From Acuticoccus mangrovi (lineage in GTDB: Bacteria; Pseudomonadota; Alphaproteobacteria; Rhizobiales; Amorphaceae): 54,570 nucleotides of DNA. Position 1 is the first letter of the stretch; each line of letters starts with the position of its first letter. The translations under genes and the position numbers were made by a program. Where the stretch lies: NCBI RefSeq assembly GCF_016411865.1, contig NZ_JAEKJA010000031.1:1-54570 (forward strand), given 5' to 3'. Positions 46,936-50,929 of this stretch are shown one piece after another. Below the pieces are notes generated by a model. It did not search any database. It was given only the letters and a program-made list of their open reading frames with translations, and was not told the DNA's origin.

Positions 46936-49737
46936 ATGGGCGCATTGGATGCAAGTGCGAATGGCCGACGTGAAACTCTGCAAGAAAAACGTGGCCGTCT
47001 GAAGCTGCAGGCGACGTTACACAATTCATTTGCACGCCCAAACCCTCGGGCGTTGGTTGACGAATTGCATAATCTCCCGACGCTGTTCGAAGCGCAAGTT
47101 GCCCGAACACCCGACGCCGTCGCCCTGACGTCGGCCGGCGCCGCCGTGCGCTACGCCGAGCTCGACGAGCAAGCCAACCGCCTGGCTTGGCGGCTCATCG
47201 CAAGGGGGCTCGGTCCGGAAAGCGTGGTCGCCCTGCTCCTCGACCGGACCCCGCCGCTGGTCGCCGCGATCCTCGCCGTGCTCAAGGCCGGCGCGGCCTA
47301 CCTGCCGATCGACCCCGCGACGCCGGACGAACGCGTGGCGTTCGTCATCGAGGACAGCGCGCCCGGGGTGGTGCTCACGCTCGCCAGCCTTGCGGGACGC
47401 CTGCCCTCGCACGTCGACCGCATCGTCCTGGACGACCCCGCGGACGATCGCGCGCCCGCTGCCCGGCGGGTTGCCGCACCGCGAGACGACGATCGCAACG
47501 GACGGCTGAGACCGGACAACATCGCCTATATTATCTACACGTCGGGCAGCACCGGGCGCCCCAAGGGCGTCGCGATCAGTCACCGGAATGTCGTCCGGCT
47601 GCTCGCCACGGCCGACGCCCACTACGACTTCGGACCAAACGACTCCTGGCCGTTGTTCCACTCCTACGCCTTCGACGTGTCGGTTTGGGAGATGTGGGGC
47701 GCGCTGCTCCGGGGCGGCCGGCTGGTGATGGTGGATGCGCGCGTCGCTCGCGCGCCGCAGGAACTGAGAGCCCTGTTCGCCAGGGAGAGGATCACGGTCC
47801 TCAACATGACGCCGTCGGCCTTCTATCAGCTGGTTCAGGTCGAGACGGAGTCGTTCGCCGACGCCCCGCCGTTGGCGATACACACGGTGATCCTCGCCGG
47901 CGAAGCACTGGACGTCCAACGGCTCGTCGGCTGGCAGGCGCGCTACGATCCGCAGTCGCAATGCGTGGCGAACATGTATGGGACGACGGAAACGACCGTC
48001 CATGCCACCTTTGCGCGGGTCGCGCGCGTCTCGCCCGGCAGCGACGACCGTCTCATCGGCTGCGCGCTTGCCGATTTGACGGCCCTCGTCCTTGACGAGA
48101 GGCTGCGGCCCTGCCCGCCGGGCACCGTTGGCGACCTCTATCTGGCCGGCCCCGGTCTCGCGCGGGGCTACAGAGGGCGCCCGGGGCTCACGGCCTCCCG
48201 CTTCCTCGCCAATCCGTTCGGCCGGGGCGGAGAGCGGATGTATCGAACCGGCGATCTCGCGGCCCGGCGCGCAGATGGCGAGCTTCTCTTCCGGGGCAGA
48301 GCCGACGAGCAGGTCAAGGTTCGTGGCTATCGGATCGAGCCGGGCGAAATCGAGGCGGCCTTGCTCGGGTTTCCGACCATCGCGCAAGCCGCAGTCATCG
48401 CCCGCGAGGACGTGCCCGGCGACCGGCGTCTGGTGGCCTATGTCGTTCCGGCACGGGACCCGAGCGGCGCGCCCGGTGTTGTCGACACCGCCGCCTTGCG
48501 CGCGCACCTCGGCCGCTCTCTCCCGGACTATATGCTGCCGAGCTCCTATGTCGGCCTGGACGCTTTGCCTCTGACGGTGAACGGCAAGCTGGACAGGCGT
48601 GCCCTGCCGGTCCCTCGATCGAGCGGCACCGAGGCGAACTACCGCGCTCCGGTCTCGCCCGAGGAGATTCTGGTCTGTCGCCTCGTCGCCGATCTGCTCG
48701 GGGTCGAGCGGGCGGGTATCGCCGACAACTTCTTCCATCTCGGCGGCGATTCGTTGCTGGCTGCCCGCCTCGTCGCGCGGATCCGCGTCCACGGCGGGCG
48801 GGACGTTCCGGCCTTCGCCGTGCTGGATGCGCCGACGCTCGGTGACCTCGCCGCGTGTCTCGAAGGTGGGTCACCCGCCGGCGACGGGTCGTCCTTCGAT
48901 ATCTTGCTGCCCCTGAGGCGGACCGGCAGCCTGCCGCCGCTGTTTTGCATGCATCCTGTCGGCGGCCTCTGCTGGCCCTACGCGGCGCTGCTTCCGTTTC
49001 TTCCCGAGGCCCAGCCGATTTACGGCCTTCAGGGTCCGGGATGGCGGGACGGCGACAGACTGCCCGCGACGATCGATGCGCTGATCGAGGCGTGTTCCGA
49101 CGCCCTGACGCGGGTGGCGCCGAGCGGCCCCGTCCGTCTGCTCGGGTGGTCGTTCGGCGGCATCCTCGCTCACCTCCTCGCGACGCGGCTGCAGCGCCGA
49201 GGCCGGGAAGTCGATCGGTTGATCATGCTGGACGCCTATCCGCCGGCGGCCGATCATCGGGGCTACGAGCCCCGCAGCGATGCGCTGTGGCGCGACATGG
49301 CGATCAATCTCGATCTCGCCATTCCATCCGACATGGCGGGACAACGCTTCGATGGTGCGGCCATGCTGGATCTCGCTCGTGCGCAATCGCATGTGCTCGG
49401 CAGCTTCTCGCTCGACGAGGTTCACCGCTTTGCCGACGTCATGGCGAACAACAGCCGCCTCTTGGAGCGGGTCCGGTTCGAGACTTTCGCCGGCCCGATC
49501 ACTTTCGTTTCCGCCGGCCGTCGGGCGCCGGGCTTCGACCGGGAGCGGATGAACCCGGACGGCTGGCGTAGCTTCTCGACGGGCGAGCTCGTCTCGAGCA
49601 CCGTCGATTCCACCCACAACGAGATGCTGAGCACCGCTTCGTTGAAGCAGATGCCGTGTCTTCAGGCGTTGAACGATGTGCCCGTTCCGCCGTCCGATCA
49701 CTTCGCCGAGGGGAGCGACAATGCCAGTGCCGTCTGA
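46936..49737 (+). CDS. Stand-alone nonribosomal peptide synthetase module, A-T-TE
   Basis: A 933-residue synthetase with no condensation domain. The A domain (about 45-560) has [14 protein letters not shown] (A3, 198-211), FDVSVWE (A4, Asp247), MYGTTETT (A5) and NGKLDRRAL with catalytic Lys551 (A10). The carrier domain (about 575-645) has LGGDSLL with Ser606. The thioesterase (about 670-920) has GWSFGG with Ser739 and probable His894. Pocket residues by the GrsA scheme read D-V-W-N-I-A-M-V-H-K, eight of ten matching the common threonine code, so Thr or a close hydroxy amino acid is likely. A-T-TE units usually load an amino acid for oxidation on the carrier and then release or transfer it. 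GAGGTGAGG precedes the ATG by 7 bases. The hydroxylase gene overlaps its end. Confidence 0.93.
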
Positions 49738-50929
49738 GTTCACCGAGCAGGCCGTGCGAGAGCGCTCGCCCGAGGGAACCGGCCTCTATGCGGACTTTCT
49801 CGACAACGACGATCTGGGGCGATCCCTGTTCGCGGCCAATCCCTGGCTGGCGGCGCCGGACAACGACAAGCCGTTGCCCTGGGACGGCGAGCGATACTGG
49901 AAGACCACGGTCGCCCGGAAGCACCTCTATTGGAGCGCGATCGCTCTGCCGGAGCCGACCAAGGACATCCGACGGATGCGTCGCGACCTCCTGGAGTGGG
50001 GCTACTGCCTCATCGAGGATGCGATGTCGGACACCCAGTGTGCGACGCTCTACAAGCGGCTGGTGGAGCAGGCGGCCGGCGAGCGGCAAGCCGGCGTGGC
50101 GCTCGGCTCGCCCTACGGGCAGTACGTGAACGCCCTCGTGAACAAAGGCGACTGCTTCGCGCGCTGCATCGAGCAGGATCCGGAGGTGGTGCAGGCCGGC
50201 CCGGTCATCGAGCAGCTCGCGGACGAGGCGCTCGGCAAGGGCTGGATCTGTCACTCCTTCCTCGCGATCAGCGCCGACCCCGACCGCTATCCGCAGCGCG
50301 TCCACATGGACCAGGGATCGCTCATGCCCTGGATCCCCGCGGAGGCGCCGATGCTCCTCAACACGATGTACATTCTCGAGGACGTCGGCGAGCACAACGG
50401 CGGAACGCTGCTCATCCCCGGGTCGCACAAGACCATGGCGGAAGGGCGCCGAACCGGCGTCGTTGGCGCGCTGCCCCCCATGGTCCATCTCGAGGCGAGG
50501 GCCGGGACGATCATGGTCTTCGACGGTCGCCTGCTCCACGCAACCGGCGTCAATCGAACCGACAAGCAGCGTTTTGTCGCGATCATGGCCTTCATCAAGC
50601 CGTGGATGCGCCAGCAGGAAAACTGGGTGCTCACCGTCAAGCCGGAAATTCTGCGCTGGGCGAGCCCGAAGCTGCTTCATCGCATGGGTTTTCAGGCGAT
50701 GTTCAGCGGCGGGACGGTCGAGGGGTGGGGGATCAACTACGTGAACGGCCAGCTCGGCGATCCGATGGCGCGCATCACGGCCTTTCGGGAGGCGATCGAC
50801 GCCGGACGCTATCAACGCGTCGGCGTGTTGGCGCCGGGTACGCCCGCCGCGGATCCGGCACACGACTACACTTTGCGGTCTGTCATTTCCATGGCGAAAG
50901 ATGCCATGGGCGACGCGTGGGAGGCGTAG
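49721..50929 (+). CDS. PhyH family Fe(II)/2-oxoglutarate hydroxylase
   Basis: A 402-residue phytanoyl-CoA dioxygenase-like protein. The iron triad is His195-x-Asp197 ([12 protein letters not shown]) and His273 ([11 protein letters not shown]), with Arg279 likely binding 2-oxoglutarate. The intact Asp indicates hydroxylation, not SyrB2-type halogenation, where Asp is Ala or Gly. [11 protein letters not shown] is the family strand before the distal His. The ATG at 49721 overlaps the NRPS by 17 bases and has GAGGGGAG just upstream. Overlap with the A-T-TE gene suggests that it oxidises the tethered amino acid or its product, which is inference. Confidence 0.92.

Follow-up and report, generated by a model that had tools for sequence, protein, structure and literature searches.

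A stand-alone A–T–TE protein and an overlapping PhyH-family dioxygenase in Acuticoccus mangrovi: a possible off-line station for amino-acid hydroxylation

In several described systems an amino acid is tailored on a carrier domain before it joins a peptide. In the syringomycin system of SyrB1, SyrB2 and SyrC, a stand-alone adenylation–thiolation (A–T) unit supplies threonine and tailoring occurs on the carrier (PMC8949500). For polyoxypeptin, PMC3943440 sets out a proposed route in which the residue is tethered on discrete A and peptidyl carrier protein (PCP) domains, hydroxylated, released by a discrete thioesterase (TE) and re-activated; production depends on the stand-alone domains, and PlyO is given as a PhyH relative of unsettled role. 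Here, we analyse a locus of Acuticoccus mangrovi in which the gene for a fused A–T–TE protein overlaps that of a PhyH-family dioxygenase. The window, that is, the whole stretch of 54,570 nucleotides that was analysed, is exactly contig C25 of an assembly in which the genome comprises 65 contigs, and the two genes of interest are the following.

46936 to 49737, forward strand: stand-alone A–T–TE protein of 933 amino acids (domains from Pfam; pocket DVWNIAMVHK, which we call threonine-like)
49721 to 50929, forward strand: PhyH-family Fe(II)/2-oxoglutarate dioxygenase of 402 amino acids (Pfam 5e-19; H195-x-D197, H273 and R284)

The single best reading of this pair, although a tentative one to which we give somewhat less than an even chance, is that the PhyH enzyme hydroxylates an amino acid while it is bound to the carrier domain of the A–T–TE protein, because the genes overlap, the PhyH sequence is deviant and the A–T–TE protein has no slot in the main line. 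With the same reserve, the pair may be regarded as an off-line precursor station for a multimodular nonribosomal peptide synthetase (NRPS), at which a residue would be tethered, hydroxylated, released by the TE and then re-activated.

The 933-residue protein matches AMP-binding (1.3e-85), AMP-binding_C (4.3e-13), PP-binding (1.5e-12) and Thioesterase (2.9e-25) in Pfam and gives no Pfam match to a Condensation domain. Its carrier serine, Ser606, and a likely TE triad, Ser739–Asp766–His894, were read from motifs; the TE nucleophile motif is GWSFGG, the serine of which is typical of hydrolases and cyclases. For the PhyH gene, start 49721 is preferred over 49676 on account of a better-looking ribosome site, GAGGGGAG, as judged by eye, and the residues are numbered from this start; the alternative start is possible and would give 417 amino acids and an overlap of 62 bp. 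The arrangement given in a preliminary description of this DNA, a stand-alone A–T–TE protein overlapping a PhyH enzyme, is thus borne out, with the overlap refined from 62 to 17 bp.

The pocket code of the A domain, DVWNIAMVHK, was taken from alignment columns and agrees with the code first described; as a control, the same columns give recognisable codes for domains on two other contigs of the same genome (DLFNLSLIWK on C9 and DLTKIGEIGK on C47). Asp235, which is residue 247 of the protein, and Lys517 are retained, and the pocket is of the amino-acid type. The nearest assigned code is that of threonine, DFWNIGMVHK, with eight of ten positions the same, and this code or a one-letter variant of it is found in 21 of 22 similar A domains of other genomes, the exception being L152 (the 22 are the best matches to the window protein in other genomes, one from the order search and 21 from the phylum search). 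The assignment of DFWNIGMVHK to threonine is supported by PMC12283262 and PMC4169593. Since DVWNIGLIHK, which shares seven of ten positions with the window code, is listed for modified ornithine in the survey PMC12283262, we call the substrate threonine-like. The earlier statement that the pocket is close to threonine therefore holds as to the nearest code and the similar domains, and is qualified by the ornithine-type code and by the tree of A domains described below.

In the PhyH protein, His195, Asp197 and Arg284 are invariant among 49 aligned members and His273 is present in at least 90% of them; the iron/2-oxoglutarate residue set is complete and the HxD triad is of the hydroxylase type. 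The triad reported beforehand is in place, with Arg284 in addition. In SyrB2-type halogenases the iron-binding Asp is replaced by Ala or Gly, a replacement that is not found in the window PhyH, in which Asp197 is present. An AlphaFold2 model built with the 49 aligned sequences has a mean pLDDT of 90.3, and the protein fits the pattern of PhyH dioxygenases, in which the iron triad and the 2-oxoglutarate Arg sit in a jelly-roll fold.

A scan of 84,980 species genomes for PhyH relatives gave 105 confirmed stretches, from which 80 loci were kept; the best relative has 60% identity over residues 15–410, and the long form is found in SAR86 and other Gammaproteobacteria as well as in Myxococcales, Actinomycetota and a Phenylobacterium bin. 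In a tree of 37 rows the window copy and 23 rows form a starred group (97/92), and the end branch of the window copy is 1.21 versus a median of 0.19, with longer branches in three distant rows. At 169 positions with at least 90% agreement among the 23 nearest alignment rows, 22 of which are also among the 23 of the tree, the window PhyH departs 27 times, versus 0–9 times in each of those rows (leave-one-out). Family-wide it departs at four of 66 conserved positions, two of which are Ala274, next to an iron ligand and Gly in 48 of 48 others, and Leu32, which is Pro in 48 of 48. The total of these departures, rather than any concentration in the core, is a hint of a new substrate. A search of 101 genomes, that of the window and those of 100 relatives, gave PhyH matches (E 0.001) in 19; the best outside the window genome has 35% identity over residues 82–346, with higher percentages only on short pieces. 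There is no match at this threshold in seven other genomes of the genus or two of the family, so the gene is not common to the near kin searched. In a plasmid search, 69 of 72,556 records match, none covering 80% of the query.

The place of the A–T–TE protein was considered relative to the main NRPS of the window, which is cut by the contig end.

52933 to 54570, forward strand: start of the main NRPS, A domain, cut by the contig end (code DIAMIGEIF, last position unread)

The rest of this NRPS probably lies on contigs C47 and C9, which belong to the same genome. Identical stretches of 41 bases end both C25 (window positions 54530–54570) and C47 (6724–6764) at the same A-domain place, which is probably an assembly break at a repeat that splits one megasynthetase, and C9 begins just behind the A-domain place at which C25 and C47 end. 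The order C25–C47–C9 is preferred as the simplest because it leaves the fewest parts missing (one T domain and one A10 stretch); a direct C25-to-C9 order was considered and is less favoured for the same reason. Both the adjacency of C25 and C47 and this order are inferred. With Cy and E labels that are our own reading of motifs, C47 has the domains C–A(Asn type)–T–Cy-like–A(Cys type)–nitroreductase/SagB-like oxidase, and C9 has T–Cy-like–A(Cys type)–T–C–A(Tyr type)–MT–T–E-like–C–A(DFWNIGGVFK)–T–TE. The C47 code DLTKIGEIGK is taken by us to be of the Asn type, and the C9 domain labelled Tyr is presumably of that type. PMC12283262 places the near-identical DLTKIGEVGK under Asp/Asn, and the Cys code DLFNLSLIWK read on C9 is given in PMC11253843.

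On C25, C47 and C9, each of the modules seen includes an A domain of its own, and no A-less module that needs filling in trans is seen on these contigs; therefore, the A–T–TE protein has no obvious place in the line, and it looks like an off-line precursor unit. No free-standing C domain was found: the eight C-type matches of the genome (E 0.001) all belong to long NRPS frames, which are on C47, C9 and C32. The NRPS on C32 is a separate one whose single frame holds two A domains, two C domains and one TE. One more carrier-domain match lies inside a 2454-residue frame on C63.

The closest protein to A–T–TE in its own genome is the terminal A–T–TE module on C9 (48% identity, and 46–52% by domain), a similarity that would suit a duplicated pair. 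The code of this module, DFWNIGGVFK, differs from that of threonine by two changes, both at the side-chain end (M322G and H331F). Searches with A–T–TE matched two of 397 genomes of the order at E 1e-150 and 16 of 398 genomes of the phylum at E 1e-140, its own genome included in both. Among the order and phylum matches listed, the only frame of 850–1100 residues is that of the window, a weak negative, since scoring was confined to the top two candidates of each genome. Two other genomes (G253 and G300) have stand-alone frames of 670 residues with threonine-type codes, which were considered as potential SyrB1-like controls and lie in surroundings that look polyketide synthase-like and sugar-like by eye. 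A fused A–T–TE with a PhyH hydroxylase is reported in none of the literature matches listed, which is weak evidence of novelty as few subscription papers were covered.

Four further genes of the window enter into the proposed mechanism.

36053 to 36283, reverse strand: MbtH-like protein, an A-domain partner
35256 to 36056, forward strand: 4'-phosphopantetheinyl transferase
50959 to 51900, forward strand: glycosyltransferase (GT)-like protein, named from annotation of relatives only
51878 to 52672, forward strand: S-adenosylmethionine methyltransferase-like protein, with a sub-threshold Methyltransf_24 match, overlapping the GT-like gene

In the proposed mechanism, the A domain together with MbtH would load threonine or a close relative onto Ser606 of a carrier domain primed by the nearby phosphopantetheinyl transferase. 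The PhyH enzyme, which may have been drawn from a family whose other observed members lie away from NRPS genes, would hydroxylate the tethered residue, at C-4 if it is threonine and perhaps at the beta carbon if it is a relative. Hydrolysis by the TE of the A–T–TE protein would then free the hydroxylated residue, to be re-activated by one of the main-line A domains, for which the best candidate is that of the C9 terminal module. The GT-like and methyltransferase-like proteins may go on to modify the hydroxyl group so introduced. A more specific version, in which PhyH has been re-shaped into a carrier-dependent threonyl-S-T hydroxylase and the fused A–T–TE frees hydroxythreonine for a widened pocket in the C9 terminal module, is rather unlikely as a whole, and we are similarly doubtful that such a pair forms a self-contained 'load, hydroxylate, release' cassette.

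Several observations weigh against hydroxylation on the carrier. The best PDB fold matches of the PhyH model are AndA and DhiD, and the sequence and fold matches together include AndA, PrhA, DhiD, TlxI, FtmOx1, SptF, kanamycin B dioxygenase and a leucine hydroxylase; these PDB neighbours act on free substrates such as terpenoids and alkaloids. No carrier-dependent halogenase, by name, is among the 53 PDB sequences that the PhyH profile matches at E 10 or better; such halogenases do have entries in the PDB. The fold search covered the best 50 of 1612 matches, and carrier-dependent halogenases may stand lower in the ranking. Relatives of A–T–TE, GT-like, methyltransferase-like or NRPS proteins (E 1e-4) occur in none of the 80 PhyH loci; the flanks of 71 loci (L041–L111) reach at least 5 kb on one side in 59 and on both sides in 30, so that clusters farther away would be missed. 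The neighbourhoods are varied, with the commonest common neighbour in 11 of the 71 loci, and the recurrent neighbours, named from sequences, resemble short-chain dehydrogenase/reductase, CaiB/BaiF CoA-transferase, GMC oxidoreductase, P450, amidohydrolase and enoyl-CoA hydratase genes and look catabolic.

The evidence from divergence also has its other side. The window PhyH stands outside the 23 rows of its group (88/91, not starred), a placement that is unsure because of the long branch, and as it is probably outside, part of the deviation could be plain divergence. The share of departures in the two catalytic segments, which were picked from motifs and contain 57 of the 169 positions, is ordinary: 14 of 27 for the window copy versus 40 of 81 summed over the 23 nearest rows. 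Four distant rows depart family-wide as often or more often (L084 six, L103 five, L106 five and L100 four, versus four for the window). A tree of 30 A domains places the window domain beside those of its own genome (94/90, not starred) and outside the threonine set, and re-activation by the C9 terminal A domain is an inference from its code alone. Of the carrier-bound oxidation line first put forward, the A–T–TE protein, the amino-acid pocket, the hydroxylase triad and the tight gene coupling stand, whereas action on a carrier-bound residue is weakened by the absence of A–T–TE or NRPS relatives from the 80 loci, the catabolic-looking neighbours and the action of the structural relatives on free substrates. 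The genes are real; action of the hydroxylase on a tethered amino acid is a proposal.

The strongest alternative follows directly from these relatives: PhyH may tailor a free substrate or the released peptide, and A–T–TE would be a neighbour in the same operon with another task. This is a possibility to be taken seriously, somewhat less probable than the carrier-bound reading. The relatives in the PDB, whether found by sequence or by fold (AndA, PrhA, DhiD, TlxI, FtmOx1, kanamycin B dioxygenase and leucine hydroxylase), and the catabolic look of the family neighbourhoods speak for it, but the PhyH and A–T–TE genes overlap and the window copy departs strongly from its nearest relatives.

An unlikely alternative is that PhyH hydroxylates a residue of the main line, for example that of the C47 Asn-type module, to give beta-hydroxy-asparagine as an iron ligand in a metallophore imported by FhuDBC-like proteins. 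It draws on the code DLTKIGEIGK, on the Cys-type modules with Cy-like domains and oxidase, and on a group of transport genes.

42138 to 43034, forward strand: FhuD-like protein for binding iron-siderophores, scoring below the FhuD cut-off of NCBIfam; a neighbour, putatively part of the pathway
42632 to 45013, forward strand: FhuB-like permease, longest frame, the match beginning near residue 147 and the true start therefore later; a neighbour
44170 to 45795, forward strand: FhuC-like ABC ATPase, longest frame, the ATPase part beginning at about residue 303; a neighbour

Given these genes (42138–45795) just upstream of the NRPS genes, the NRPS product may be a metallophore. Nothing couples PhyH to the C47 module, however, and the proposal depends on the C25–C47 adjacency; moreover, the siderophore Asp hydroxylases described in PMC8949500 are of the TauD/SyrP type, whereas the enzyme here belongs to PhyH.

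It is a little less probable still that A–T–TE supplies or attaches unmodified threonine in trans without oxidation, either from carrier to carrier or through a TE-made ester or lactone on a peptide or sugar. SyrB1/SyrC provides a precedent for trans supply of threonine from a stand-alone A–T unit (PMC8949500), and the TE triad motifs of the window protein are intact. Yet the A-less module that such supply would serve is seen on none of the three contigs, and the TE has the Ser of a GWSFGG motif, which is typical of hydrolases and cyclases. Finally, a furanone or quinone synthetase of the NRPS-like kind that couples two alpha-keto acids, which has the same A–T–TE order, is rejected as highly improbable, as the A domains of those enzymes lack the amino-group-binding Asp235 and the window domain keeps Asp235 and Lys517 and has a threonine-type code.

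Other genes lie between and around those discussed.

37621 to 40115: a pair of overlapping P450 genes within the supposed cluster, one CYP101-like and the other CYP153-like
36332 to 37516, on the strand opposite to the P450 genes: Rieske oxygenase
40155 to 41204, reverse strand: WD40/beta-propeller-like protein, with the P450 genes on one side and the Fhu genes on the other
41170 to 42141 and 45814 to 46770: two frames without a Pfam match over threshold, the latter with a membrane-like stretch by eye
31006 to 33117, reverse strand: member of the hydantoinase/oxoprolinase family, matching caprolactamase subunit alpha best in NCBIfam but far under the cut-off

The P450, Rieske and WD40-like genes separate the MbtH-like and phosphopantetheinyl transferase genes from the genes downstream. 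The P450s were considered as the oxygenase partner of A–T–TE and are not preferred; their best structure matches are CYP101 of the camphor type (2.6e-93) and CYP153 of the alkane type (1.1e-123). The second P450 also matches, at 1.9e-39, a set of P450 structures including 4pwv, a carrier-dependent amino-acid hydroxylase.

The label 'GT-like' given at the outset has no support in Pfam, in which the gene has no match even at E 5. Six plasmid relatives with 40–44% identity are annotated as HlpA-like, nucleotide-diphospho-sugar transferase, FkbM methyltransferase (one) or hypothetical, and the two of which the surroundings were inspected lie among glycosyltransferase and sialate-type sugar genes. 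A scan of viral contigs gave no relatives of this protein. The 'methyltransferase-like' label is weak, as its Methyltransf_24 match is sub-threshold.

On C47, a nitroreductase/SagB-like oxidase lies at about 6081–6575, behind the main part of the Cys-type A domain; with the Cys-type modules on C47 and C9 it makes a thiazole–thiazoline core likely in the predicted NRPS product, which is unmatched to a known compound (no compound search was made). Behind the NRPS on C9 (L017, 12954–19866, and L018) lie genes for an M29 aminopeptidase, a JmjC-like protein, a class V aminotransferase, an FAD-NAD(P)-binding protein, two luciferase-like monooxygenases and a dipeptide-type ABC transporter.

If carrier-bound hydroxylation is correct, the locus would supply a hydroxylated building block of the threonine type from a compact cassette of two genes; a PhyH lineage without a carrier-protein role in the literature found would gain one and would offer a clean case for evolving carrier recognition. 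Compared with its own long-form family, the window PhyH has the same length, N-terminal extension and iron/2-oxoglutarate residues at about 41–60% identity; the family is without an NRPS relative in the fetched flanks, whereas the window copy forms a long branch with many unusual residues.

SyrB2 is a member of the PhyH superfamily, and the window pair resembles SyrB1/SyrB2 in combining a stand-alone threonine A–T unit with an iron oxygenase that would act before the residue joins the peptide. In contrast, SyrB2 is a halogenase that has lost the iron-binding Asp that the window PhyH keeps as Asp197, SyrC is a separate shuttle while the window unit has a fused TE, and syringomycin has an A-less module to serve, of which none is seen here; SyrB2, by name, has no entry among the PDB sequences matched by the PhyH profile at E 10 or better. 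The pair is also like NikP1/NikQ and NovH/NovI, in which an A–T unit works with an oxygenase on a tethered amino acid (NikQ is named in PMC3943440), but NikQ and NovI are P450s and the partner here is a PhyH enzyme. The preliminary analogy with these three pairs thus remains useful as a functional lead and does not extend to sequence kinship. The proposed window route is most like that of polyoxypeptin in being an off-line sequence of tethering, hydroxylation, release and re-activation; in polyoxypeptin each of A, PCP and TE is a protein of its own and a P450 and others are the hydroxylases assigned to the route, whereas in the window A, T and TE are fused in one protein and the candidate hydroxylase is encoded by the overlapping PhyH gene.

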